The notes under the pieces are model-generated. The model saw nothing but the letters and a program-made list of their open reading frames with translations. It searched no databases and had not been told where the DNA came from. A stretch of 20,805 bases of DNA. Origin: a virus. A program made the position numbers and the translations under genes. Positions 1,654 to 20,782 of this stretch are shown here, in pieces. The stretch spans positions 1 to 20,805 of the IMG/VR virus record IMGVR_UViG_3300010368_000154; one strand, given 5' to 3'. How positions within the stretch are numbered: position 1 is the first letter of the stretch; each line of letters opens with the position of its first letter.

Positions 1654-1744
1654 GCAACTTGAGGCTATGTCTAATCGTGACCTTGCAGACATCGGTATCA
1701 CGAGGGGTGATATTGACACTATTGTAGATGGAATTAAAGAATGA
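1619..1744 (+). CDS. DUF1127 (YjiS-like) small protein
   Basis: Encodes 41 residues. The C-terminal half, LEAMSNRDLADIGITRGDID (residues 14-33), is a near-textbook DUF1127 motif (L..LsdreLaDIGltRgdI), preceded by a basic stretch (YRKKRQTRKQ). DUF1127 proteins are very small, often Arg-rich, common in Alphaproteobacteria, and some studied members bind RNA or affect RNA turnover and phosphate physiology. The ATG at 1619 gives a full-length small member; a GTG at 1607 with GAAGGA just upstream is an alternative. It overlaps the preceding gene by 35 bases in another frame and shares ATGA with the RNR start. The role in infection is inferred to be host RNA or stress modulation. Confidence 0.8.
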   Translation: MEFYRKKRQTRKQLEAMSNRDLADIGITRGDIDTIVDGIKE

Positions 1745-3531
1745 CCACACAGTACAACCACAACGTATTCCGTACACCTATTGCAGAACAGATGTGGGAC
1801 ATGAAGTACCGCCTCAAGAAGTACGACGGTACACCACTAGACATGACAGTACATGACACTTGGGCGCGTGTGGCTAACGCCTTGGCACAAGCAGAGAACC
1901 CCGCAGAACGTACACGGTGGGCTACCTCCTTTGAGGAAGCACTCGAAAGCTTTAAGTTTATTCCAGCCGGTCGCATCAACGCAGGTGCTGGTACTGGTGA
2001 GCGTAATGTGACACTGTTCAATTGCTTTGTGATGGGTACTATTCCAGATAGTCTTGTTGGTATCTACGACGGGCTGAAAGAAGCAGTCCTGACCATGCAG
2101 CAAGGTGGTGGTATTGGCTACGACTTCTCTACGTTGCGTCCACAGGGCGCTGAAGTTAAGGGTGTGGCGTCAGATAGCTCCGGTCCGCTTACCTTTATGG
2201 ATGTGTGGGATTCGTCCTGTCGCACAATCATGTCTGCTGGTACACGTCGGGGTGCCATGATGGCAACGATGCGGTGTGACCATCCTGACGTAGAGAAGTT
2301 TATCGAAGCTAAGCGTGATCCTGCCCGCTTGCGTATGTTTAATATGTCGGTACTGGTAACCGATAAGTTTATGGATGCTGTTCGTGAAAACAAAGACTTC
2401 GAACTTGTGTTCGACGGCAAGGTGTATAAGACGATCAAAGCTAAGTCTCTCTGGGACAAGATCATGCTGTCTACCTACAACTACGCTGAACCGGGTGTGA
2501 TCTTTATCGACCGTATCAACGAGATGAATAACCTCAACTACTGTGAAACGATTGCTGCTACAAACCCGTGTGGTGAACAGCCGCTTCCACCTTACGGTGC
2601 TTGTCTTCTTGGTTCTATTAACCTCGTTGCTCTTCTTAATTATGACTACACAATCAACTACCGTAGCCTAGAGAACACGGTACGTATTGCTGTGCGTATG
2701 ATGGACAACGTTGTTGACGTGTCGAAGTTCCCACTGCCAGAGCAAAAGGAAGAGGCACTGAACAAACGTCGTATTGGCCTTGGTGTCACTGGACTTGCAG
2801 ACGCACTGGCCCTTGGGGGTATTGTGTACGGCTCTGACGAGGCGGTTGAGTGGACAGACAAAGTCATGAAGTTTATTGCTGTTGCAGCGTACCAAGCTTC
2901 TATTGACCTTGCAAAAGAGAAGGGTCCTTTCCCTCTGTTTGATGCCGACAAGTACCTTGCCACGAAGAACATGCGTGGTATGCCTAAGCATATCCGGCAG
3001 CAAATCAAGGAGCACGGTATTCGTAATGCTTTGCTGACAAGCATCGCACCAACAGGTACTATTAGTTTGTACGCTGGTAACGTGTCGTCTGGTATCGAAC
3101 CTATCTTCGCTTTGAGTTATGAGCGCAAGGTAATGCAGAAAGACGGAAGCAAGATTACTGAACTTGTTGAGGACTACGGGGTTACTAAGTGGAAGCGTGA
3201 TAACGTAGGTGTCCCATTGCCTAAGTCATTCGTCACGGCACAGACACTTAATCCGTCTGCCCACATTAAGATGCAAGCAGCAGCACAACGTTGGATTGAT
3301 AGTTCTATCTCTAAGACTGTCAACGTTCCAGAGGACATCAGCTTTGATGACTTCAAGGAAGTCTACATGCAAGCCTACGATACAGGCTGTAAGGGTTGCA
3401 CAACGTACCGGCCTAACGATGTGACCGGTAGTGTCCTTACTGCTACTGAAGAAGGGCAAGTAGAAGAAGGTGGGGCGTGTGAGTTGAAGTTTGACGAGAA
3501 CTCAGGACAACTCATTAGATCATGTGAGTAA
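1741..3531 (+). CDS. nrdJ: Adenosylcobalamin-dependent (class II) ribonucleotide reductase
   Basis: Encodes 596 residues, converting ribonucleotides to deoxyribonucleotides for phage DNA synthesis with a coenzyme B12-derived radical. Visible signatures are NPCGE with N275, C277 (thiyl) and E279; C288 eleven residues later and C95 (LFNCFV) as the active-site redox pair; and GCKGCTTYR near the end, typical of class II enzymes. The C-terminal tail carries C580 and C595, which would re-reduce the active site. There is no room for an N-terminal ATP-cone, so overall activity is probably not dATP-inhibited. No beta subunit or activase is adjacent, consistent with class II. It starts within ATGA shared with the DUF1127 gene and is followed by a terminator. 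It depends on host B12. Confidence 0.95.
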   Translation: MTTQYNHNVFRTPIAEQMWDMKYRLKKYDGTPLDMTVHDTWARVANALAQAENPAERTRWATSFEEALESFKFIPAGRINAGAGTGERNVTLFNCFVMGTIPDSLVGIYDGLKEAVLTMQQGGGIGYDFSTLRPQGAEVKGVASDSSGPLTFMDVWDSSCRTIMSAGTRRGAMMATMRCDHPDVEKFIEAKRDPARLRMFNMSVLVTDKFMDAVRENKDFELVFDGKVYKTIKAKSLWDKIMLSTYNYAEPGVIFIDRINEMNNLNYCETIAATNPCGEQPLPPYGACLLGSINLVALLNYDYTINYRSLENTVRIAVRMMDNVVDVSKFPLPEQKEEALNKRRIGLGVTGLADALALGGIVYGSDEAVEWTDKVMKFIAVAAYQASIDLAKEKGPFPLFDADKYLATKNMRGMPKHIRQQIKEHGIRNALLTSIAPTGTISLYAGNVSSGIEPIFALSYERKVMQKDGSKITELVEDYGVTKWKRDNVGVPLPKSFVTAQTLNPSAHIKMQAAAQRWIDSSISKTVNVPEDISFDDFKEVYMQAYDTGCKGCTTYRPNDVTGSVLTATEEGQVEEGGACELKFDENSGQLIRSCE

Positions 3532-4187: not shown

Positions 4188-4451
4188 ATGGAACAATTCT
4201 TTTTGTACGTATTCTTTGTAGCCAATGGAACCGTATTCATGGACCCTAACTACCCACCACTAGAACAACAAAGACTTAGTACATGTTTTGCTCGTGCAAT
4301 TGCTGCTGATACAATGTTTAATGATCAACTACCTGACGGCGTCATGTGGCAGGTCGGGTGTACCCAAGTTAGTAGTAACGAAACACTGGTCGGAAACCTA
4401 CAAATCATTTACGATAGTCTTGTAGCCGAAGTAGAAGGGGAACGACTGTAA
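4188..4451 (+). CDS. Unknown small protein upstream of phoH
   Basis: Encodes 87 residues starting MEQFFLYVFFVANG. The ATG at 4188 follows AAAGGA (4174-4179) at good spacing, so the in-frame ATG at 4149 is not preferred. The first 18 residues are hydrophobic and aromatic, but there is no basic n-region; they may be a core strand rather than a membrane segment. The rest is mixed (PPLEQQRLSTCFARAIAAD helix, then GVMWQVGCTQVSS strand). It has three Cys and no known motif. Its stop overlaps the phoH start by one base (TAATG), suggesting coupled expression. Confidence 0.62.
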   Translation: MEQFFLYVFFVANGTVFMDPNYPPLEQQRLSTCFARAIAADTMFNDQLPDGVMWQVGCTQVSSNETLVGNLQIIYDSLVAEVEGERL

Positions 4452-5149
4452 TGTTTGACGATCCCAAGCGAACAACACGACGTAAAACAAACTATAAAGG
4501 TGCAGCAAAGAAAGAACAAACAGCCCTGCTACCAAAGAACGATAAACAAGCTGAGTACATCGAGGCTATCAAGTCGTCTAGTCAAGTTGTAGTCTTGGGG
4601 CCAGCGGGTACAGGTAAGACGTACATTGCTGCTACGTATGCAAGCAACCTATACACTACCAAACAGATAGACAAAATTATTATCACGAGACCTAACGTAG
4701 CTGCCGGTAAAAGCATTGGGTACTTTCCCGGTACTATGGAAGAGAAGATGATGCCTTGGGTTATGCCTGTGCTTGAGGTACTGCATTGGAACATGGGTAA
4801 GGGTGCAGTAGAGACTGGCATTAAGAATGGTAACATTGAGATTGCACCATTCGAAACAATGCGTGGTCGTAGTTTTCAAGATGCGTTTGTTATTCTAGAT
4901 GAAGCACAGAACGTTACACCACACGAGATAAAAATGTTCTTGACTCGTGTTGGACAAAACTGTAAAGTAATTCTTAATGGTGACATCCAGCAGTCTGACC
5001 TTGGGTACACCAGTGGACTAAGTAGTGCAATTCATATTGCTAAAAAACATATGATACCTGTTCCTGTTATTGAGTTTACAACAGACGACATTGTACGCTC
5101 TGATCTTTGCAAGCAGTGGATCGTAGCGTTTCTAGCGGAAGGACTATAA
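4451..5149 (+). CDS. phoH: PhoH-family P-loop ATPase
   Basis: Encodes 232 residues of the PhoH family, cytoplasmic P-loop ATPases related to superfamily 1 helicases and associated with phosphate starvation and RNA metabolism. Walker A GPAGTGKT is at 50-57; TRPNVAAGKSIGYFPGTMEEK (79-99 region) is the characteristic PhoH block; Walker B VILDEAQN is at 147-154; and LNGDIQQ (175-181) matches the sensor-like motif. Before residue 30 there is only a basic, probably disordered, tail. Length fits short phage PhoH proteins lacking extra nucleic-acid-binding domains. PhoH is widespread in marine phages; whether it aids phosphate stress, RNA handling or replication is unsettled. It shares single-base TAATG overlaps with both neighbours. 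Confidence 0.95.
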   Translation: MFDDPKRTTRRKTNYKGAAKKEQTALLPKNDKQAEYIEAIKSSSQVVVLGPAGTGKTYIAATYASNLYTTKQIDKIIITRPNVAAGKSIGYFPGTMEEKMMPWVMPVLEVLHWNMGKGAVETGIKNGNIEIAPFETMRGRSFQDAFVILDEAQNVTPHEIKMFLTRVGQNCKVILNGDIQQSDLGYTSGLSSAIHIAKKHMIPVPVIEFTTDDIVRSDLCKQWIVAFLAEGL

Positions 5150-5411: not shown

Positions 5412-5446
5412 AAACCCCCGGTATTACTACTGGGGGTTTTCTTTTA
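5412..5446. terminator. Bidirectional terminator between convergent gene blocks
   Basis: A 12-base-pair stem (arms 5412-5423 and 5428-5439, five G-C pairs in a row, one G-U) closes a TTAC loop. Rightward the stem runs into TTTTCTTTTA (5437-5446), a good U-tract. Leftward the tail is TTTCTCTTTG, weaker but workable. It lies just past the stop codons of both the rightward 84-residue gene (5403) and the leftward 1238-residue gene (5444), so it can stop both transcripts. Confidence 0.88.
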
Positions 5447-8400
5447 GTTACTAGCAGCCCTACTTATCTGGGTTCGAGAGAAGTTAGGTTCTGTTTCTCG
5501 CATACCTTTAGCGGTTGTCATCAGTCTTAGGCGATTAGTAAGTTCTTCAGTTAGAGTTTCTGATTGACCCAAGAAGTCATTAGCAGAACTAACAACACCA
5601 CCAGACAATTCACTAGCTGCTTTGTCGAGCCACTCAAGACCATCACCATTAGCTGCGTAGGTTATGTACGTATTACGCACAAATCCAGCGGCATCCCTTA
5701 CTTCTCCAAGGTTACTGGAGTTAATCCTTTTGTCCAGTGTGTTTGAAACAAAGGTCGATGCTGCGGAAGTTATTTGTCCAATCCAGATAGTAAGTGCTTC
5801 TGCCTTTTGCTCGTTGTTCAGATCAGCGTAACGAAGACGTGTATCTCCAATCGGTTGTTGAAGGAAGTCGTTGTACAACTCGTCAATGTTCTTTGCTAAA
5901 AACTCACGTGCCTGTATGTCTACAACAGGGTTGTTTGTAGGAATACGACCTAGTTCAAACTCCCTGAGTTGTAGCCTAGCCATTTCTTCCTGAATAGCAG
6001 TCTGACTTTGACGTTGCTCAACACCAAACTGTTTTGTGATTGGGTTAGGTGTACGAAGAGGTGACGGATTGAACACGTTGTAGTACGGGCGGTCATAGCT
6101 GGCGTCTTCTGTTGGGCCTTTGTTAGAAGCGTACCTAAATGTAGCCACGTCTGGGAAGAACCGGGTAAGCTGGTTGACGAACTGTTCATTCGTGAATACG
6201 TAGCCAAGCAAAGACAACCCACTATCAGGCTCAATAAATACGTCCTGTTCATCAGAAGCATTACGTGTGTTACGTGTGTAAGGTGATGGTGCAGACAAGG
6301 GGTTGTACTGCCCGACCAAGTCTCTTGCTACAGCGGCGGGGTACGTAAAGTTAGCTCCAAAGTTACCCAAGGACCTAGACAAGAAGTCTGCGTTGGTTGG
6401 CGTTGGGTCTTGCGAGTAGTTGATAAGGTCAGCCACAAGTCCACCATCAGCACCAAGGTCAGTCATACCAGTCGTAATATCAAGAAGCTCTTGTGGTGCA
6501 TCAGTAAGGAATGGGTCGCCTCGCATCATACGGGCGTACTGCTCACCAATATACATGTGTAGCACCCAAGGTCCAGCGGACCGCTTAAGGTCATACCCTG
6601 CGCTACCCTCACCCTCACCGGGACCTTGTAGTGTCTTGTAGTCTGGTGAGTTACCAGAAGCGTTCAACTGAATACCAGCAATGATAAAAGCAAGACCAGT
6701 AAGCTGACGTACTGCACGGTCTTCAGTAGTCTTGAACGGATCACTAAAACGACCGACAGCATCCTTGCCATACATCAGCCGTTCCATAGTAGCAAGTCCA
6801 CCACGAGCGGCCCCACTGAATGGGTTGTAGTCGTTGATGTAGTCAAGCTGGTTGGCAACGTAACGAGGGAACGGTGCACCGATAACTTGTGAGAATAGGA
6901 AAGGTATCTTACGACTAGTCTCAACAGCACTAGCGGATAGCCTACCAAAGTGAGAGTTGTCACCTTTACCTACAAAGCTACGCTGCATAGTCAGACGCTC
7001 TGTGTCGTTAACAGCCCTGTCAATGATAGCGTCCAGTACTTCCTTGATTTGAATGTCTAGCTTTTCTGTGTCAAAGCTTTCATTCTTTTTAAGAAACTCA
7101 CTGACGTTGCGACCAAGCTGGTTACGCATAGCAGGTGTAATAGCTATTTCAACCATCTCACCAGTTACTGGATCAGCCCTCTGAATAGAAGGCATCGCGG
7201 CAACGTCCCGTAGCTGCCTGCTAAAGCTACTGTAGAATATGTTCCGCTTAAAGGTGTTGTCTGTCACAGCATTCATTAGGTTTACGGCTCTTGCTCCACG
7301 AAGAAGCATGGACGTAGAGTTGTCACTAATTTCATCAGACCGTAGTACGTCGTGCCAAACACGTTTGTACGTATTAGGTAGGCTATCCGCAAACATTACT
7401 TCCAAGACTTGCTTGTCGGAGTTACCCATACTCATACCACGAATGATGTCTGTGGCACCCTTGAATGCACTGACAGCACCCGCGCCGTCTTGCTTAATGA
7501 TAGCACGGTACAGGCCACGCATTGTTTGGTCACTGACATCAGCAGCAAGGTTCAAGCCGGTACCTGCAATGTTCGCAACAGTAGTACCAAGCTGACTAGT
7601 CATCATAGCAATAGACGCTTGGTCAAGCTGACGCAAGACCCACATGGCGGTACCTTCGTCTGGCCTTGCTCCTTTGGGTTTGTTCGCTTGTGCTTCACGG
7701 GCTAACCTAGTGGCTAGTTCCATGTCCACGTGTGGGACCTTAGCTGACAATCCACGCAGTACGTCTGTTGCAGCCTTAACGTCAGCAACTTTAAGCCCAC
7801 GTTTCAACTGTGACTGTACGTTCAACAACTTACCTGCGTTAGACAAGTCAGCAAGGTACACATAGCTAAGCTCTTCAGTAGACAGTCCGTACGTACGGCG
7901 AACTTCATCCAAGAACGTTAGGGCCTTTGGAAGGTCAGTCTTTGAGCTAGTCATATACTCAGCTATACGTGCCGATATACGGATGTCAGGATCAAACTTC
8001 TTACCAGCCTGCCATACGTTAAACCTATCCGCAATGTCCAGAGTAGCGGCGGCAACAGAACGCATAGTGTCAAGAGACAGACCAGTTGTAGACAAAGCAC
8101 TGTCTGACTCTTTACCGGTCAGCATAAGCTTCTTGACTGTGTCACCCTTAAGTACAAGATCAGGATCAAGTGCTTGCATAGTAGTTACTGTGCGGTCAAT
8201 AACCATCTGCGCCTTCAAGGCTTCCTCAGTGAGAACACCATCCTTACCTTTACCAGAAGCTTTACGTGCAGCCTTAAGTCTATCTCTGGCAGCTTTAGAA
8301 GCAGCACGTTTAGCGGCACGTCCACGAACACCTTGGTCAATCAAAGTGTCAAACATTTTATTACGTGCGTTGGCGTTAGTGGCACCAGCAACACCACCCA

Positions 8401-9160
8401 TGATGCCACCAAGTGCTCCAGCAAACAGTGCATCACGCGCAACGTCACCGGCAGTGTACTGGTAGTCATCAATAGTTTGTGCTCGTGCTTCCCTATTGGC
8501 GTAAGACATACCAGCACCAATACCAGCCTCTACTACACCAGTCGTAAGAAAAGAACGGGCAGCTTCACGTCCAAGGCTTAGCGGCAAGGCCCGTGCTGCC
8601 TGACGAGAAGTCACACCGACTAGTGCGCCACTAGCAGCTTGGTTACGGACAGTGGCAATAGCTGCCTGCCTTGTCGTTGAGTTAGACAACTGACCAACTA
8701 CAGCACGACGTACAGCGGCCTGTGAGGCTACTGTAGAGGCACGGGCAGCAAGCTTAGAACCGGCACCAAGACCACCTGTACCTACTGTAAGCCACGTACT
8801 AGGGGCCGTAGCAAGGGCTGCACCGTAGTCAAGCGCACCGCCAATAAAGCCAGTACCACCACCGTCAGACGTGTCGTACGCTTCCATAAGACGACCAAAA
8901 GATTCACGTCCTCTTACGTCGTTGTCTTCATTACGTGCATACATCAAGTCTTTGACACCAGTAGTCTCGTTGACTGTCTGATAACGCATATGCTCAACGA
9001 AGTCTCGTGCTAGACCTTCTGCACCTTTTTCAATCATCTCTTCACGAGAAAGGCTGTAACGACCACCACTAAAGAACCTGACAAGATCAGCCTGTGCCTC
9101 TGGGTTACTAGACACCGTTTCTATGAATGACCGACCAGCGGCTTCATCTGTATATGCCAT
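5444..9160 (-). CDS. Large internal virion (DNA-ejection) protein, gp15/gp16-like
   Basis: Encodes 1238 residues, the longest protein here. In T7-like phages such proteins are packaged in the capsid and released into the cell envelope to form the DNA channel. Visible features are an Ala/Gly-rich amphipathic N-terminal third with small-residue hydrophobic segments (residues 103-135, and ALFAGALGGIMGGVAGA at 244-260), a basic helical stretch near 270-300, long helical middle regions, and a C-terminal half with another hydrophobic patch (LTGLAFIIAGIQL). No lysozyme/SLT motif was seen in it; that activity lies in a separate protein at 10893-11609. It is last in the late operon. The start at 9160 has a weak ribosome-binding site, suggesting coupling to the gene five bases upstream. 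Confidence 0.78.
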   Translation of the reverse strand: MAYTDEAAGRSFIETVSSNPEAQADLVRFFSGGRYSLSREEMIEKGAEGLARDFVEHMRYQTVNETTGVKDLMYARNEDNDVRGRESFGRLMEAYDTSDGGGTGFIGGALDYGAALATAPSTWLTVGTGGLGAGSKLAARASTVASQAAVRRAVVGQLSNSTTRQAAIATVRNQAASGALVGVTSRQAARALPLSLGREAARSFLTTGVVEAGIGAGMSYANREARAQTIDDYQYTAGDVARDALFAGALGGIMGGVAGATNANARNKMFDTLIDQGVRGRAAKRAASKAARDRLKAARKASGKGKDGVLTEEALKAQMVIDRTVTTMQALDPDLVLKGDTVKKLMLTGKESDSALSTTGLSLDTMRSVAAATLDIADRFNVWQAGKKFDPDIRISARIAEYMTSSKTDLPKALTFLDEVRRTYGLSTEELSYVYLADLSNAGKLLNVQSQLKRGLKVADVKAATDVLRGLSAKVPHVDMELATRLAREAQANKPKGARPDEGTAMWVLRQLDQASIAMMTSQLGTTVANIAGTGLNLAADVSDQTMRGLYRAIIKQDGAGAVSAFKGATDIIRGMSMGNSDKQVLEVMFADSLPNTYKRVWHDVLRSDEISDNSTSMLLRGARAVNLMNAVTDNTFKRNIFYSSFSRQLRDVAAMPSIQRADPVTGEMVEIAITPAMRNQLGRNVSEFLKKNESFDTEKLDIQIKEVLDAIIDRAVNDTERLTMQRSFVGKGDNSHFGRLSASAVETSRKIPFLFSQVIGAPFPRYVANQLDYINDYNPFSGAARGGLATMERLMYGKDAVGRFSDPFKTTEDRAVRQLTGLAFIIAGIQLNASGNSPDYKTLQGPGEGEGSAGYDLKRSAGPWVLHMYIGEQYARMMRGDPFLTDAPQELLDITTGMTDLGADGGLVADLINYSQDPTPTNADFLSRSLGNFGANFTYPAAVARDLVGQYNPLSAPSPYTRNTRNASDEQDVFIEPDSGLSLLGYVFTNEQFVNQLTRFFPDVATFRYASNKGPTEDASYDRPYYNVFNPSPLRTPNPITKQFGVEQRQSQTAIQEEMARLQLREFELGRIPTNNPVVDIQAREFLAKNIDELYNDFLQQPIGDTRLRYADLNNEQKAEALTIWIGQITSAASTFVSNTLDKRINSSNLGEVRDAAGFVRNTYITYAANGDGLEWLDKAASELSGGVVSSANDFLGQSETLTEELTNRLRLMTTAKGMRETEPNFSRTQISRAASN

Positions 9161-9165
9161 TGTTG

Positions 9166-10302
9166 TTATTTACCTATGTAGTTGGCGTCCAGTATTTCTA
9201 AGTAGTTCGAAGCACCTACATCAGACTCTTCATCGTCTGCCATACTTGTAGTTGGTGTAGTAACTGGTGTAGTAACTGGTGCGGCAGCTACAGGTATAGC
9301 TGGTGCAGCAGTGGGTATATTGACAGTAGGAACGTCGAAGCCACCAGACTGTCGGAAGTCTTCGTAGTATTGCGCAATCTCATTAATGTCCGGTCTACGT
9401 TGCTCACCATTAATTCGTGGTGGAAGTTTAGCAGTAAGGGCGCTAGACAAAGCAGTTATATCAGACTGTAGACTTGTGGTCGTACCAGCTTGTGATTGCC
9501 TTGAAATAAGATCACTAAAAAGTCTTTGAGCAAAGTCAGCTTCTTCAGGGTTTGACTGGTAGTTATACCTAATCTCACCAGTAGGCGAAGTTATAATGTC
9601 CTGACTAGAACCAGTAAGTTCTGCGGTAAGCCTAACAGCCTGATTTCTTGCCTCACTAATTTCAGAAGCACTAGGCCCAAAGGCATTGGAGAAGTTAATA
9701 CCAACAGGTTGTACACTCGTACCTTCTACTTCGTACAGTCCGTCGTACAGAGTAGCTGCTTGTGCAAGCATATCGGTACCAACACCAAAGGCATCAACCT
9801 CTGGATCAGTCAATGCGCTAAGACCCATGATGTTTCCAACAACGTCGCCATCCGGTGTACCTAGTCGTGGGTTCGCCATGATGACAGCAGCAGCCGATAC
9901 GTACCTGTCAAAGTTACCACCAAGCTGGTCTTCAATGCTAGTACGAAGTGTTTCGTCCATGCTTGTAATGTAGTCAGGTGTAAGTTTACCTTGGCTTTGA
10001 GCACGAGAAATAGTATCTACTGCTACGTCAATTTGACCAGAGTTCTGTAGTCCAACAATAGAAACATCACTGACACCGACACTGCGTAGGTACTTCATTT
10101 GTTCAGCAGTTTGTAGCGCAGCCTCCTGTAGTGCAGCACGTTCCCTCATAACGATAGGCAGTACTGTATTGTTACGGTCTGCCCTGATACGGGCAGCAAG
10201 TTCTTTACGGTTCTCTTCGCGGTCCTTCTCGTTTTCACGCTCAGTTGCACGACGCTCAATATTTTCACTGAACCCTTGGCTTAAGCCTACCCAGAAACTC
10301 AT
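9166..10302 (-). CDS. Probable internal virion protein with N-terminal coiled coil
   Basis: Encodes 378 residues. Residues 13-45 are a highly charged helix (ENIERRATERENEKDREE), probably coiled coil. The centre is helical and Gln/Ala/Ser-rich, and residues about 330-355 are a Pro/Thr/Val/Ala linker with PVTT repeats, followed by an acidic end (MADDEESDVGAS). There is no enzyme motif or signal peptide. Its place between the transglycosylase-like gene set and the gp15/gp16-like protein, with ATGA overlap with the gene upstream and five bases to the gene downstream, suggests part of the ejection apparatus, equivalent in position to T7 gp14/gp15. The function is inferred from context. Confidence 0.68.
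   Translation of the reverse strand: MSFWVGLSQGFSENIERRATERENEKDREENRKELAARIRADRNNTVLPIVMRERAALQEAALQTAEQMKYLRSVGVSDVSIVGLQNSGQIDVAVDTISRAQSQGKLTPDYITSMDETLRTSIEDQLGGNFDRYVSAAAVIMANPRLGTPDGDVVGNIMGLSALTDPEVDAFGVGTDMLAQAATLYDGLYEVEGTSVQPVGINFSNAFGPSASEISEARNQAVRLTAELTGSSQDIITSPTGEIRYNYQSNPEEADFAQRLFSDLISRQSQAGTTTSLQSDITALSSALTAKLPPRINGEQRRPDINEIAQYYEDFRQSGGFDVPTVNIPTAAPAIPVAAAPVTTPVTTPTTSMADDEESDVGASNYLEILDANYIGK
9253..9276 (-). repeat. 12-base tandem duplication in a Pro/Thr linker
   Basis: The 12-mer TGGTGTAGTAAC occurs twice in tandem (9253-9264, 9265-9276), followed by a degenerate copy. It encodes the PVTT repeats of the linker near the C-terminus of the coiled-coil virion protein and could change copy number by slippage without breaking the frame. 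Confidence 0.75.
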
Positions 10303-14791: not shown

Positions 14792-15019
14792 TTACTTACT
14801 TGCCATGAGTGTCTTAATGTCTTGTCGAATTTCTTTGAGTAGTTCAGCAGTTTGAGTTTGATCGTGTCTACGAAGCTCTAAGTCTTCTTTACGCTGTGAC
14901 TTAATGCTTTCAATTTCAGACGAGTTAGATAAACCCTTACCTTCAAGACGTACCAACCAAACTATAAGTGTAAAAACTCCAACAATGACGGACCACCAGT
15001 CTTTTATAAACTCTGGCAT
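14792..15019 (-). CDS. Small single-pass membrane protein (holin/antiholin candidate)
   Basis: Encodes 75 residues: one N-terminal membrane segment (WWSVIVGVFTLIVWLV, 8-23), then a long charged helix (EIESIKSQRKEDLELRRHD...LLKEIRQDIKTL), probably coiled coil with the C-terminus in the cytoplasm or periplasm. It lies two bases after the tail-fibre gene and just before the lysozyme gene. T7 gp17.5 holin is also a small membrane protein directly downstream of the fibre gene, so this could be the holin, with the 65-residue protein as partner or antiholin. GGGGA precedes the start. Confidence 0.6.
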   Translation of the reverse strand: MPEFIKDWWSVIVGVFTLIVWLVRLEGKGLSNSSEIESIKSQRKEDLELRRHDQTQTAELLKEIRQDIKTLMASK

Positions 15020-15021
15020 TT

Positions 15022-17757
15022 CTACAATTCCCCGTCTGCTGGAACCTCAGTAAGCGGCTCAGTAATGACGCGACCATTTTCATCAGTCCAGTCTGTGTCC
15101 ATCATGTGTTGGTCATGACGTTCGCCAATTACAAGCCAAGAAATACTTGCAGTACACTGAGGGTCTTGTGCTTCAATCGTCAGCAGGTTACCATTAACTT
15201 TACCACGAATTGCAGTCCAGTCGTCTTCATTAGTCGTGAAGCATTGTGTGTTTGTATTCAACGCAACAAAGGTGCCTTCAGTCATACGGGCAGCTTCGTC
15301 AAGATTAACAACTGCTTTACCATCAACTAGTCTAACAACACCCCGATAAATATTGTCAGCAGTAGGACCTTCCACAAACGAGTGAACGAGATCGTGACCT
15401 TCCCGGATGGGGTGTGGGATGCGGAATGAACCAGAGCCTTTGGACAAAGCACCGGCAACAATAAATCCAGTCGGGGTAGCCCTTGCCGAGTAGACGCCAC
15501 CTGCGGCAAAGCCAAGGTTGTTCAAGCCGTACCGATACACCCCTGTGTCTGGGTCTACCCTAAAAGAGAACGAAGGAGATGCCGCCGACCCGTTGTTGTA
15601 GTGCATGATCTGGTCGTTTTCTAGTTGCAGGAGTTCTACTCCGGCGCAACTAAAGCTCAGTCGGTTTGCGGTGGCACTGAACATGCCGGTGTCAGGGTCG
15701 CTTGAGAACGACACCGAAGGCGCAGCCGCCGTGCCGTCCGCTGCAAACAATTCATTGGCAACTACGGTTTGACCGGATGCATTGATCGTAAGGGCGGCGG
15801 CAGTGTCCACATTGAACTGCCAAGAATTGCCGGTCTCGAACACAAAAGCATCCGTGAGGCTATCCGTTGCAGGCGACTTAAACGCCCAGGTTCTGGCTTC
15901 GGCACCAAGATCAACAGTCCCGCCCAACAGTTGAATATTTGTTCCGGTCCCTGTGAAGTTCCAGGCTCCAACGTTATTGACCCGCGCCACCTGTGCACCA
16001 TTCGTTGCAATGGCAAGTTGGTTCGCCGCGCTGCTATAAATCCCGGTGTCAAGGTCAGTGCGAAACGAGTAGGACGGCGCGGCGGCAGTCCCTGCGGCCA
16101 CTCCGAGTTGCCCGTTTATGTCAACGTCAGTGACTGGACTAGCCGTCCCGATGCCTAGACTACCTGACGAAGTAAGACGCATTGCCTCTGTGAATGTCAC
16201 CGGATCGCCATCAGTCCCAGACGCCGCATAATTCCAAATATGAGTCCCGCTGTTTAAAGTGTAGTTGCCAGCGGCTTCGCCTGTGACCGTATACTCCCAA
16301 CCAGACGATCCAATGGCGGCATTCGAGGAAAGGGCCACACTGCTGGCCGCATTGGTTGCCTGAATGGCATGACGGTCAGAAAGCTTAACCCCCCGCCAAT
16401 TTGATGCGAATGTCCAATCACTTGTTGTCCCGATTACTGCATTGCCAGTTGATCGCATGTTACCGGTCACGGTGAGCGGAACTGATGGACTAGACGTTCC
16501 AATCCCCACGTTGCCGTCACTATCTATACGCAAACGCTCAGTGCCGATGTCGACATTGGCGTCAGAAAGGCTTCTTCCTGTGCTTCCGGTATAGAAGGCC
16601 AAAGCTGTTGGCATATCCGATACAGAGTTAAAAGTTGCTTCCGTCACAGCAGCAATAGAGGCCGGGAAACTTATATTCGCTTGAGAACCATCGGTGTGAT
16701 TTCCACCAAAATATATCGTGCCTAGCTTTTTGTCCGTGCCGATGGCCGCATCTGTCCTATTAGATGCAATAGCTAATTTCCCGGCAAATGCCGGAGAAGT
16801 GTTGCCGTCGCTTCTTTTTCCAATTACCTGAATAGCAGGGCTGGCAGCGCTCGCGCTAGTGTCCTCTACAAGTATGCCGCCTTCAGGGTTTGCTCCTGCA
16901 ACATGGAGTTTATAGTCTGGAGTGGTTGTGCCGATTCCTAGGTTACCAGAAACTGCGGCGCTGCCAGTGACATCAAGGTCAGTGAGTGGGTTGGTTGTGC
17001 CGATTCCGAAATTTCCACCGGTAAATCGCGCCCATTCTGTTCCGGCCTGACTGCGGAAACGGTGAACGTCCGCGTCCATGATCGCGTTATTCGGGGCCGC
17101 CGTCCCAGACCCGTGCATCCTCAAGTTCGCCCCGTCACCGTTTGTGCCACCGAAAATAACCAGAGTGTCGGTGTTTGCAGGGCTGTAGATGCTGCCCCCA
17201 ACTTCGACGTTTGCGGTGATGCCGACGGTGCCAGAGAACGTGCCAGTCGTCCCGCTTATCGCCGCCGGGGTCGTCCCACCAACAATAGTGCCATCAACTG
17301 CACCACCATTAATGTCTACAGTAGTTAGAGTAGTTGTACCAGTAGCTGTGACATCAGTAAACGTACCAGCAGCGGCAACAGAAGCACCAATAATAGTACC
17401 ATCAACTGCACCACCATTAATGTCTACAGTAGTAGCATTCAGTGTAGTAACATCAGCTTGGTCTAGGTACGCGACACCATCAATGTACAAGTCCTTCCAC
17501 TCAAGAGTAGCAGAACCTAGATCATAAGTACCGTCAGTCTTAGGGTAGAAGGCACCTGTCGTAGAAACGTACTCTTGGTTAGGACCAATTACTTCTACTG
17601 CTCCGCCTTCAGCCGCAGTACCATCGTGCGTATGTCCAGAGACTGCAACAAAAGCTGCTTGGATAGCATCAAACTCTCCATCAAGGTCAGCAGCATTAAC
17701 AACGTTACCGTTAGCAATGTTGTTACCAGCGTCATTTCTAGTGTATCCGGTTCCCAT
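15022..17757 (-). CDS. Tail fibre protein
   Basis: Encodes 911 residues, the likely receptor-binding fibre. Residues 1-100 are a conserved-looking base (NAADLDGEFDAIQAAF, then a HTHDG turn) that would attach to the tail. Residues about 105-770 are a repetitive beta-rich shaft: VDINGGAVDGTI twice (111-122, 147-158), GIGT four times (251, 274, 418, 535) as in fibre repeats, and D(L/P)DTG three times (568, 687, 735). The C-terminus (776-911) begins GSFRIPHPIREGHDLVHS, a tip/trimerisation domain seen in other phage fibres, and has paired Cys. The central part differs in base composition from both ends, a sign of module exchange. No peptidase or depolymerase motif was recognised. Confidence 0.87.
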   Translation of the reverse strand: MGTGYTRNDAGNNIANGNVVNAADLDGEFDAIQAAFVAVSGHTHDGTAAEGGAVEVIGPNQEYVSTTGAFYPKTDGTYDLGSATLEWKDLYIDGVAYLDQADVTTLNATTVDINGGAVDGTIIGASVAAAGTFTDVTATGTTTLTTVDINGGAVDGTIVGGTTPAAISGTTGTFSGTVGITANVEVGGSIYSPANTDTLVIFGGTNGDGANLRMHGSGTAAPNNAIMDADVHRFRSQAGTEWARFTGGNFGIGTTNPLTDLDVTGSAAVSGNLGIGTTTPDYKLHVAGANPEGGILVEDTSASAASPAIQVIGKRSDGNTSPAFAGKLAIASNRTDAAIGTDKKLGTIYFGGNHTDGSQANISFPASIAAVTEATFNSVSDMPTALAFYTGSTGRSLSDANVDIGTERLRIDSDGNVGIGTSSPSVPLTVTGNMRSTGNAVIGTTSDWTFASNWRGVKLSDRHAIQATNAASSVALSSNAAIGSSGWEYTVTGEAAGNYTLNSGTHIWNYAASGTDGDPVTFTEAMRLTSSGSLGIGTASPVTDVDINGQLGVAAGTAAAPSYSFRTDLDTGIYSSAANQLAIATNGAQVARVNNVGAWNFTGTGTNIQLLGGTVDLGAEARTWAFKSPATDSLTDAFVFETGNSWQFNVDTAAALTINASGQTVVANELFAADGTAAAPSVSFSSDPDTGMFSATANRLSFSCAGVELLQLENDQIMHYNNGSAASPSFSFRVDPDTGVYRYGLNNLGFAAGGVYSARATPTGFIVAGALSKGSGSFRIPHPIREGHDLVHSFVEGPTADNIYRGVVRLVDGKAVVNLDEAARMTEGTFVALNTNTQCFTTNEDDWTAIRGKVNGNLLTIEAQDPQCTASISWLVIGERHDQHMMDTDWTDENGRVITEPLTEVPADGEL
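15533..17283 (-). other. Foreign-composition segment inside the tail fibre gene
   Basis: Hand counts of single 60-base lines give 55% GC (15841-15900), 62% (16081-16140) and 58% (17101-17160), against 47% (17461-17520) and 37% (17881-17940) outside. GTAC, frequent everywhere else, is absent from 15533 to 17335, about 1.8 kb. The segment encodes roughly residues 159-742, the fibre shaft with GIGT and DxDTG repeats. This suggests a swapped-in shaft module; edges are approximate. Confidence 0.75.
17284..17433 (-). repeat. 42-base direct repeat in the fibre gene (108-base offset)
   Basis: Two 42-base copies, 17284-17325 and 17392-17433, differ at one position (G17290 versus A17398). Each encodes TTVDINGGAVDGTI (residues 109-122 and 145-158). 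The left copy lies exactly where composition shifts to the GC-richer segment, so it could have served as a recombination site or arisen with the module junction. Confidence 0.88.
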
Positions 17758-17766
17758 TGTTTATCC

Positions 17767-19737
17767 TTACTGCCTGTCGTTGTTCTGATATTCGAGTGTT
17801 ATTGCGTCTAGTGAAAACGGAGGGTCAGTCCCTTCAAACAAATACTGGAAACTAACTGTACGACCTGATCCAATAATTTGATGATTGAATACGTACTTTA
17901 GTTTACCACCATAACTACTAACACCATATACAGCACTGCCGTAAAATGAAGCAGCGTTACTATCACTTATCAATGAAATAGGTTCTGGTTGAATTGTATT
18001 GGTTTCATCAAAGTCTAACTTAGGCGTGACTTGACCAGTAACTGCACCTTCTGGATCAATGTAAGTTGTAAGTTTGTAGAATGTTTTACGAAGTCTTGGG
18101 TCAGTTACAGAAAAGTATGGGGTATCGTAGAAAGCCGAAATGTCATTACCACCAAAGGTGTTACCAGTTTCCATAAGATAAACGAAACCATCGCTACCAG
18201 CAAATACGATTACTTCGTTTTCCTCTTGAGTACTATCTGCTACATACGCCTTGATACCTTCAAGCTGCGACCAAGCCATACCTTCAGATGTCTGGTCAGC
18301 AAACTGCACACCAATAATACCCTTAGCATTAGCTCTTGTAGTACTGGCAGCGTAACCAAAGATACGGTACTGGTTTTTTTCACGAACAACACAAGAGCAG
18401 AAAGAAGTATTAGAAGAAACAAGATCACGTACTTTGTCTTGAATAGGACGAGAAGCAACCGCAAGACCAAAGTCACCGATACGTTGAGTAGCAGTCAACA
18501 ATCGAATACCATCAGGGCCAAGGAAAGCAATATCACCACCAACTTCCTGTATAGTGTCCGGGCGTATACAACCCACGTCGTGTGTAATTGGTTTGACTGT
18601 AAAGTCTGATACTGTGCTACCTTGAAGTGAAACAATATGGTTTGTGCTAAAGATAATAAGCTGGTCACGAAAGACACGCATACCTGTAATGTCTTTAGTA
18701 ATATTTATAACACCGGCACCACTAGCAACATTAAAGTTTGTTTCGTCAAAAGGTGCGGTAAATGCTACATAGTTAGCTTCCCCAAAGAATACCGCATTCT
18801 TAAATACCGCAACGTGGTCAGCGGATATTACATCAGATGGGGCATCATTAAGAACAACAAACGTACTACCATCGTAAGTGAACGGCTTATTTTGTCCGTC
18901 AACACATACAATCTTCTGGGTACCACTGAAGTTCAGCGTATCATACCGAAGCTTTCCACCACCACTACGGTCAACACTAAGGAAAGTAATGGCTGCATTA
19001 TTGGCAGGTGAAGACGCTAGTGCTGGCGTAATAGTAAGTGTAGCTGCACCACTGGTTACTGTAGGCAGTACCGTAACAGTATATACAAGTTCAATACCGG
19101 CAATACTAAATGTGTCACCGACCTGTGGGACACTGGTCAAACCATCCACATTAAAGGATGTACCAGTCTGTGCGCCACCAGCAGTAAGGACAGTACCATA
19201 AGAAGGTACGTTTATCTTTGTCCAGCCAATAGTATCCGAAGACCACAACGACCCACCACGGTAAGCAATCACACTTCCACCGTAGTAAATAACACCCTTA
19301 ATAAGGCTGGTAGTATTACTGAACGTAATAGCAGCCTTGTCGGCAGGTGAAGAATCCAAGGATGTCGTCAGCGTCAGTGTAGCAGTCTTGTTGGTACTAT
19401 TGAAGGATACACCCGCCGCATCAATTGTGTATGTGCCGGATACACCATCAATAGTAAAAGTATCGCCATCGGCTGGTTCTTCGTAGATATTCGCAATGTT
19501 AATTGTGGTGCCAGTCTGACCACTAGCTTGAACAACAGGGTCACCATACGGTGGAACATAATCGTCGTCGTACTGTGTGTATCCTTGTACCCGACGATAC
19601 CCGCCCTCAATCGAAGGTTCAAAGTTAATTAGTGTACGGGCAGAACCCGGATTACTAATACCTTGTTGTAGCGGCGAGATGTTAGTCACCAAGCCCCCAC
19701 GACACTCTACCGGAAATGTATCCCACCTAGTCGGCAT
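17767..19737 (-). CDS. Tail nozzle protein (T7 gp12 / P22 gp10-like)
   Basis: Encodes 656 residues. The start (MPTRWDTFPVECRGGLVTN, then NPGSARTLINFEPSIEGGYRRVQGY) is the standard opening of podovirus tail nozzle (tubular protein B) proteins, which form the lower tail tube below the adaptor. Downstream beta-strand repeats (KPFTYDGSTFVV, HVAVFKNAVFFG, RDQLIIFSTNHIVSLQG, DIAFLGPDGIRLL) indicate the nozzle beta-propeller. Two related ~65-residue segments (74-139 and 190-252) are inserted near the N-terminus. It follows the tail-adaptor gene with a one-base overlap and precedes the fibre gene, matching T7 order gp11-gp12. The homology is at motif and context level. Confidence 0.85.
   Translation of the reverse strand: MPTRWDTFPVECRGGLVTNISPLQQGISNPGSARTLINFEPSIEGGYRRVQGYTQYDDDYVPPYGDPVVQASGQTGTTINIANIYEEPADGDTFTIDGVSGTYTIDAAGVSFNSTNKTATLTLTTSLDSSPADKAAITFSNTTSLIKGVIYYGGSVIAYRGGSLWSSDTIGWTKINVPSYGTVLTAGGAQTGTSFNVDGLTSVPQVGDTFSIAGIELVYTVTVLPTVTSGAATLTITPALASSPANNAAITFLSVDRSGGGKLRYDTLNFSGTQKIVCVDGQNKPFTYDGSTFVVLNDAPSDVISADHVAVFKNAVFFGEANYVAFTAPFDETNFNVASGAGVINITKDITGMRVFRDQLIIFSTNHIVSLQGSTVSDFTVKPITHDVGCIRPDTIQEVGGDIAFLGPDGIRLLTATQRIGDFGLAVASRPIQDKVRDLVSSNTSFCSCVVREKNQYRIFGYAASTTRANAKGIIGVQFADQTSEGMAWSQLEGIKAYVADSTQEENEVIVFAGSDGFVYLMETGNTFGGNDISAFYDTPYFSVTDPRLRKTFYKLTTYIDPEGAVTGQVTPKLDFDETNTIQPEPISLISDSNAASFYGSAVYGVSSYGGKLKYVFNHQIIGSGRTVSFQYLFEGTDPPFSLDAITLEYQNNDRQ
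18982..19518 (-). repeat. Duplicated domain within the tail nozzle (protein level)
   Basis: Residues 74-139 (DNA 19321-19518) and 190-252 (18982-19170) share a template: QTGT(T/S)(I/F)N, GDTF(T/S)I.G, YT(I/V), TLT(L/I)T and SSPA(D/N)(K/N)AAITF. They look like an early duplication of a small beta-sandwich module inserted into the nozzle; the DNA copies are well diverged. Confidence 0.82.
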
Positions 19738-20459
19738 TAGTTGCCAAGCCTTCCGTTCATGCGGACACCACGATCAATACGAGTATCCCTAACGTAATCG
19801 TATCGGTTGATATACAAGGATCGCATGTCCTTGATACCTTCCATAAACTTCTCTTCAATTAGTGCAGCGTCCTGTGTGTTACCACGAAACAAGAACGAGT
19901 GGTACATAGCACCATCTACAATAACGTACCTAAACTGTTCTGGAATATCAGGCACGTCAGAGTATAGCTGTAGGTCTACCGGCAACCGGTAGTACTCATA
20001 CACAATCTCATACGCTTTGTCAGGTACAGGATGAACACCGTACTCTTGGTTAGGTGTACGGAATACGTGACGGGGAAGCGCCCGGATACCAGTGTCAGAA
20101 GTATTGTACTCATCGTCAACGTAGCGGTTCAGGTAGTCTTCATATGAAAGAATAGAAAGCTTCTGAGTAGCATTCCCAAAAGTACTATTACGTTTAATTC
20201 TAAATGATTCAAGATCAACAGTCTTGCAGTCAGATGGGTACGAATAACGTGTCGTGCCAGCAGTCAGTGTTTCTTCCTGCTCGACATGATTGAACGGCCA
20301 CTCGTAGGCAACTTGGTTAATGCTACGAATTGATGCATTGATTGAGTCTTTAGCTGACGAGTAAAATCCAGTAGCAGTACTAAAGTTGCTAGATGTAAGG
20401 GCCACCTCATTAAGACGACGGTTAACATCGTTTACAAGCCCAAGGAAATTGTAAGCCAT
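19737..20459 (-). CDS. Tail adaptor / head-to-tail connector (T7 gp11-like)
   Basis: Encodes 240 residues, the ring under the portal that joins capsid to nozzle. The pattern is that of T7 gp11/P22 gp4-like adaptors: an N-terminal helical part (FLGLVNDVNRRLNEV... SSAKDSINASIRSINQ), a WPF aromatic motif (EWPFNHVEQEETL), a beta domain (RYSYPSDCKTVDLESFRI), then PDIPEQFRYVIVDGAMYHSF, where proline and aromatic residues precede a long helix, and a C-terminal helical arm (IEEKFMEGIKDMRSLYINR). It overlaps the nozzle start by one base and the upstream gene's stop by one base (TAATG). Confidence 0.85.
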   Translation of the reverse strand: MAYNFLGLVNDVNRRLNEVALTSSNFSTATGFYSSAKDSINASIRSINQVAYEWPFNHVEQEETLTAGTTRYSYPSDCKTVDLESFRIKRNSTFGNATQKLSILSYEDYLNRYVDDEYNTSDTGIRALPRHVFRTPNQEYGVHPVPDKAYEIVYEYYRLPVDLQLYSDVPDIPEQFRYVIVDGAMYHSFLFRGNTQDAALIEEKFMEGIKDMRSLYINRYDYVRDTRIDRGVRMNGRLGN

Positions 20460-20782
20460 TATCGTTCCTTTACTCGTAGCTTGATGACACGTTCAGTTAC
20501 AAGACCAACACTGTCAGTCATACTACAGTAAAACTTATAGTCAGTATTAGCAGTACCAGAATTTAGGTTAATTGTAGTCACTGTATTAGTATTTGTTTCG
20601 GATACGTTCTGGATACCATTAACAGTTTCACCAGCATTAATACTAGTCTTTACACCATCAGCGTCATCAACATACCAGTTAACACTAACAGCAGTGACAC
20701 CTTCTTCACCAAGGAACCGGGACCAGTCAACATTGTAGTCTAGCTCTTCGTCAGGGTCCTTGTTAGGCCAGCGGAAACTCAT
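20459..20782 (-). CDS. Small virion protein, Ig-like / adaptor type
   Basis: Encodes 107 residues. The opening FRWPNKDPDEELDYNVDW and the end VTERVIKLRVKER match a widespread small phage structural family ('K.Pde..dY..DW ... Y...c.v.ts.G...e..i.l.v.') found between capsid and tail genes and predicted to be an Ig-like beta-sandwich; some members are annotated as fibre-tail adaptors or head-tail proteins. AAAGGA lies 9 bases before the ATG at 20782. It is first of the late genes visible here and has a one-base overlap with the tail adaptor. Capsid and portal genes would be expected beyond the window's right edge. Confidence 0.72.
   Translation of the reverse strand: MSFRWPNKDPDEELDYNVDWSRFLGEEGVTAVSVNWYVDDADGVKTSINAGETVNGIQNVSETNTNTVTTINLNSGTANTDYKFYCSMTDSVGLVTERVIKLRVKER

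Follow-up and report, generated by a model that had tools for sequence, protein, structure and literature searches.

The window analysed here, a 20,805-bp virus record (IMGVR_UViG_3300010368_000154), is a partial, metagenome-derived contig of a marine (ocean) phage. The structural genes in its right half were annotated as below, and the tail fibre gene was recognised from its ORF, its PHROG tail fibre matches and its N-terminus.

20462-20782, minus strand: Gp77-like fibre-tail adaptor
19737-20459, minus strand: TTPA-like protein
17767-19737, minus strand: TTPB-like protein
15022-17757, minus strand: tail fibre, 911 aa, downstream of the TTPA-like and TTPB-like genes
14792-15019, minus strand: small protein, probably with a membrane segment
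14156-14782, minus strand: lysozyme

The fibre N-terminus matched the fibres of Roseobacter phages CRP-345 and CRP-603. The TTPB-like protein showed 54% identity to the TTPB of CRP-345 with 99% covered, and was related to other HMO-2011-type TTPBs. TTPA, TTPB and the fibre N-terminus were all present in the gene order of CRP-345, and on this predicted tail module the fibre gene is assigned to an HMO-2011-type marine podovirus. The DNA polymerase with a DnaJ-like domain that is typical of the HMO-2011 type was not found in the partial contig; HMO-type tail modules have been found with other replication modules too (PMC8528129). Megablast of the whole window against phages gave no match. The best PHROG for the TTPB-like protein (17767-19737, minus strand) was phrog_5107 'amidase', a name also used in an HMO-2011 record; it looks like an annotation error, since a tail tubular protein is indicated both by where the gene lies and by its relatives. 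A 1238-aa protein at the structural module's end (5444-9160, minus strand) had no Pfam or PHROG match and may, by its position, be an internal virion protein. A PhoH-like gene (4451-5149, plus strand) adjoins the convergent structural module, and a perfect 12-bp tandem repeat, 2.4 copies of TGGTGTAGTAAC, lies at 9253-9281 within the gene at 9166-10302.

In HMO-2011-type podoviruses such as Roseobacter phage CRP-345 and Puniceispirillum phage HMO-2011, the fibre is reported to be the variable gene of the group (PMC6918029, PMC8528129). These phages have the same TTPA/TTPB-fibre order and the same fibre N-terminus as the window, but only the N-terminal fibre part is common to them, and the shaft and tip of the window are not theirs. 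Of the loci carrying HMO-type tail tube genes, 113 aligned to the fibre at residue 85, 48 at residue 160, 8 at residue 260 and only 1 at residue 610. The anchor is conserved among HMO-type relatives and the remainder of the fibre is not, the alignment thinning out past codon ~160. A structure model of the anchor was of low quality (pLDDT 66) and was left out of the interpretation. The following parts could be distinguished within the fibre gene; L163 is a contig of 58% GC (IMGVR_UViG_3300021378_000103).

17278-17757, minus strand: anchor, codons 1-160 (GC3 0.26, 8 GTAC), conserved in HMO-2011-type relatives
17278-17436, minus strand: two direct-repeat copies of VDINGGAVDGTI, codons 109-120 and 145-156, located by codon listing and edge scan
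15370-17277, minus strand: putatively foreign shaft, codons 161-796 (GC3 0.54, GC 0.548)
16444-16956, minus strand: shaft sub-block, codons 268-438, 45-55% identical to the fibres of S-TIM5 and S-TIM66 and to contigs L115, L116 and L027
16045-16137, minus strand: repeat-unit head, codons 541-571, with 93 of 94 bases identical to L163, up to GACACCGG (Asp-Thr-Gly)
15794-16056, minus strand: continuation of the same unit, codons 568-655, matching a different L163 repeat (77% DNA identity over 263 bp)
15370-15447, minus strand: first part of the tip domain, codons 771-796, resembling L163 (26/26 residues, 18/26 codons), with the right joint at its end
15022-15369, minus strand: rest of the tip, codons 797-911 (GC3 0.34, resident-like), a beta-rich domain found in many unrelated phages

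The tetramer GTAC was over-represented in the window (160 sites compared to 115±8 in dinucleotide shuffles). No GTAC occurred at 15533-17335, and this gap of 1807 bp was the longest in the window, the next being 777 bp. When codons 142-741 were recoded with the usage of the other window genes while the protein was kept fixed, 18.7±2.6 GTAC sites were expected and 0 were observed; the same recoding gave an expected GC3 of 0.360±0.018 compared to the observed 0.527. As the shift lies at synonymous sites with the protein fixed, it is not accounted for by the shaft being rich in Gly, Thr and Ala. A best-deviating-segment scan selected codons 161-795 with z = 10.2, while the maximum in any other window gene was 4.9. 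Gly-Thr pairs were encoded as GGT-ACN in 0 of 22 cases in the insert; resident DNA often has GGT-ACT. The GTAC excess outside the shaft could be explained at the trinucleotide level, and partly by GGT-ACN coding of Gly-Thr. A role of GTAC as a selected or avoided word was rejected, as the counts fit the Markov-2 expectation both inside and outside the block. Since these counts follow trinucleotides, GTAC is only a marker or by-product of codon choice. The window's second composition outlier was the ribonucleotide reductase gene (1741-3531, plus strand; GC3 0.50, z 4.9 over codons 2-565), which is perhaps also of separate origin.

The sequence-only reading had drawn attention to a GTAC-free middle of the fibre gene, placed at 15533-17283. 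The absence of GTAC is real and far beyond chance, and composition does shift sharply, with edges at codons 160/161 and 796/797; the block, however, extends over 15370-17277, ~160 bp longer at its low end. A GC content of 55-62% had been given for the segment; GC is raised but not uniformly so, with 200-bp windows of 15370-17277 ranging from 0.46 to 0.625 around a mean of 0.548. Both ends had been described as keeping the composition of the phage, which is correct for the anchor and for codons 797-911, but the first ~27 tip codons still fall inside the block.

At the left edge, the number of codons with G or C at the third position increased from 5/40 to 30/40 across codons 160/161 (p = 2e-8, with the edge picked from the data). 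The edge follows directly after the second copy of VDINGGAVDGTI, a repeat with a 35-bp exact core, ACTACTGTAGACATTAATGGTGGTGCAGTTGATGG, that encodes TTVDINGGAVDG (the VDINGG repeat). This type of repeat is widespread. Comparison of 53 motif-bearing fibres revealed the left edge of the window to be the sharpest, with z 6.3 followed by 4.7. The DINGG motif as a general recombination seam was rejected, as a composition edge lay near the motif in only 1 of 32 clear-edged fibres, that of the window, where 1.7 were expected. With no coinciding composition edges in other fibres, the motif does not act as a general seam on this criterion, which counts against the explanation preferred below. No donor could be found at the DNA level for codons 161-530.

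Further into the shaft, fibre codons 531-908 matched L163, which carries a portal of phrog_1216 and a major head protein of phrog_1328. No HMO-type tail tube genes were detected in L163, and the 13.9 kb of L163 compared showed no further DNA similarity to the window. An exact 29-bp piece of the near-identical stretch at codons 541-571 occurred in IMG/VR only in the L163 contig. Beyond GACACCGG, the window continues with IYSSAANQLAIATNGAQVARVNN, which showed 47% identity to L163's own continuation at the 94-bp site and agreed in 52/60 bases with a different L163 repeat. The head of that other L163 repeat is carried by a second window repeat (54/68 bases). On these alignments, the heads and tails of the units have changed partners at the Asp-Thr-Gly core. 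It is tentatively suggested that marine phage fibres of this kind draw on a shared library of repeat units, in which crossover at GACACCGG would recombine heads and tails from unrelated phages and thereby rebuild the fibres unit by unit and not as a whole.

The GC3 of the shaft varied among its sub-blocks, being 0.68 for codons 161-266, 0.41 for 267-425, 0.50 for 426-531 and 0.58 for 532-796, which makes an origin as a single piece unlikely. At least three sub-blocks make up the insert, which is itself a mosaic; they differ in GC3 and in their homologues. The fibres of the cyanomyoviruses S-TIM5, S-TIM61 and S-TIM66 (Aurunvirus) are homologous to the shaft block at codons 268-454 and to the tip with 45-57% identity, but these phages are of a different virus type, show no resemblance in the anchor and are too diverged to be the donor. 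Known phages provided only ~50-80 bp pieces at the DNA level, from Roseobacter phages CRP-1, CRP-2 and CRP-9. The swapped-in shaft that had been proposed from composition thus has support in its foreign history, given the codon shift and the DNA identity with L163, but not as one imported module, given the patchwork of sub-blocks and homologues. The alignment with related phages agreed with the proposal in the case of the HMO-type contig L179 (TTPB 56%, TTPA 57%). Here the ends aligned as DNA (anchor codons 12-94 and tip codons 787-901), whereas the shaft was not alignable and the middle gave only weak protein matches of 28-35%.

At the right edge, third-position G or C decreased from 34/60 to 16/60 codons across 796/797 (p = 1.5e-3, with the edge picked from the data), inside the conserved beginning of the tip. 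Over codons 771-796, one alignment gap pattern is common to the window and L163 and absent from the other tips. Same-codon agreement with L163, corrected for composition, was 18/26 in codons 771-796 (8.7±2.2 expected) and 20/78 in codons 797-911 (23.3±3.4 expected), indicating silent-site kinship with L163 up to codon 796 and no recent kinship in 797-911. Agreement with L179 was 6/18 before the joint and 40/78 after it (31.1±3.9 expected, P 0.015); uncorrected counts overstated this switch towards L179. Residues at which the window matched only one of the two contigs favoured L163 by 8:0 before the joint and were 14:17 after it. A triplet permutation test gave p = 1e-4 with a breakpoint near codon 804-808, part of this signal being codon composition.

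The sequence-only reading had treated the tip as a conserved end of the fibre family; this does not hold, as the tip is a promiscuous domain. Among the HMO-type-tail loci compared, only L179 and L011 carry it, and many unrelated phages, cyanomyoviruses among them, have it as well. The tip clade is common to HMO-type and GC-rich phages, and the family occurs in contigs of 33-58% GC with a GC3 that roughly follows each genome. In a protein tree of codons 797-911, the window grouped with L163 (96/92), then with L179 and L180. Since this tree still joins the tip to L163, a resident tip is not established and the tip may instead be a separate import, which counts against the history preferred here. 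The same grouping, together with the fact that a single L163 gene carries both the tip and shaft units like those of the window, would fit an import of the whole distal fibre (shaft and tip, codons 161-911) from an L163-like phage, the AT-leaning tip codons meaning that the donor itself was mosaic. This is considered rather unlikely, as the silent sites after codon 797 are without recent L163 kinship and have weak kinship with L179, and the GC3 of the tip matches that of the resident genome.

The fibre is very probably a recombinant, composed of an HMO-2011-type anchor, a shaft from other, mostly GC-richer phages, and a tip with resident-like codon usage. This is based on the sharp codon-controlled edges, the sharing of both ends but not the middle with L179, the 93/94 identical bases in L163, the exchange of unit partners, the kinship lost at the right edge, and the sub-blocks. 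The joints would lie in short stretches common to unrelated fibres, namely the VDINGG repeat, the Asp-Thr-Gly core and the SFRIPHP..HSFVEGP tip start; at the last two, the joint sequence is shared by both parents. Annealing or homology-assisted strand exchange at such shared stretches may have taken place in cells that contained a prophage or two phages, after which selection would have kept the in-frame fibres still able to assemble on the resident tail. We infer this recombination pathway, and likewise the number of events, the residence of the tip and the effect on the fibre.

Neither junction was found in independent IMG/VR contigs, although near-identical records may be absent from the set searched. 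This counts against a recombinant fibre and would suit an assembly chimera, with reads from two phages merged at repeats that both contain, as would the metagenomic derivation of the 20,805-bp contig and the position of the left edge after a 35-bp repeat. Such an artefact is nevertheless improbable. It needs two false in-frame joints in one gene with a return to the resident genes. Nor is there a plain assembly overlap at either place, as the 94 bp of L163 identity lie isolated between dissimilar flanks and just 18/26 codons agree in the segment that precedes the right joint. A resident shaft without any transfer, its codon usage set by amino-acid make-up, expression or local selection, could draw on the Gly/Ala/Thr-richness of shafts, which increases GC at the first two codon positions, but is hardly credible, as the shift affects synonymous sites and switches within a codon or so, most relatives' shafts follow the codon usage of their own genomes, and near-identical foreign DNA in the block contradicts it for that part at least.

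The recombinant fibre was further considered for its function. The tip model (pLDDT 82.6) was beta-rich. It resembled the terminal part of the P-SSM2 tail fibre (TM 0.85) and, to a weak degree, the receptor-binding domains of phage tailspikes; by analogy, the tip is predicted to be a likelier receptor binder than the shaft. Neither the fibre nor the tip gave any Pfam match, and so none to the C-terminal S74 domain of fibres with an intramolecular chaperone, and a profile match of the tip to CD276 (E 0.001) was weak and taken as chance. A change in host recognition by the shaft exchange, as first proposed, is possible, but as the tip is likelier to bind the receptor, a change of fibre length or reach is at least as likely with the tip kept or separately sourced. 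The exchange would most likely change the length, reach or side-surface contacts of the fibre rather than bring a wholesale receptor change. A foreign-looking shaft alone thus does not imply a new receptor, as the tip may be retained or have another source.

Phages are known to remodel their fibres by swapping parts, and tail-fibre mosaicism is usually observed long after the event. The fibre of the window is classic tail-fibre mosaicism that is unusually legible, and not a new kind of process. Because its codon usage is not yet adapted and an unrelated phage carries nearly the same DNA, the joint stretches and the single-unit partner swaps can be read, and it is the swapping of units at the Asp-Thr-Gly core that deserves wider testing. 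L163 and the window have the tip domain and the shaft repeat units in common, the latter with near identity over 94 bp, but the head genes of L163 are unrelated and its units are in a different order. The distantly related Alteromonas phages A5, V22 and P24 share host-recognition modules (PMC10579305), and there too marine phages of different type have exchanged parts of their tail fibres; theirs is a multi-gene module of whole fibre and chaperone, whereas the exchange in the window lies within one gene, down to single repeat units.

A resemblance outside phages was seen in Bd2133, a Bdellovibrio MAT (mosaic adhesive trimer) fibre (8ond; PMC10769870) that matched shaft residues 404-567 by sequence (E 8e-8); such fibres are chimeric trimers in which a beta-helix body bears variable tips. 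The shaft repeat units at 15457-16434 (codons 442-767) also resembled Bdellovibrio-group proteins (31%). Together, these resemblances suggest that phage and predator fibres share a body type, although Bd2133 is a bacterial adhesin, not a phage tail, and has no reported match to the tip of the window. A bacterial or prophage donor was rejected, as the scan of genome contigs gave only two Bdellovibrio-group loci at ~31%. Two further loci (L004:7523-9944 and L105:3947-5555) had an HMO-type anchor with resident-like GC3 over the first ~180 codons and then a higher GC3, a pattern suggesting that shaft replacement may recur in the HMO-type group.
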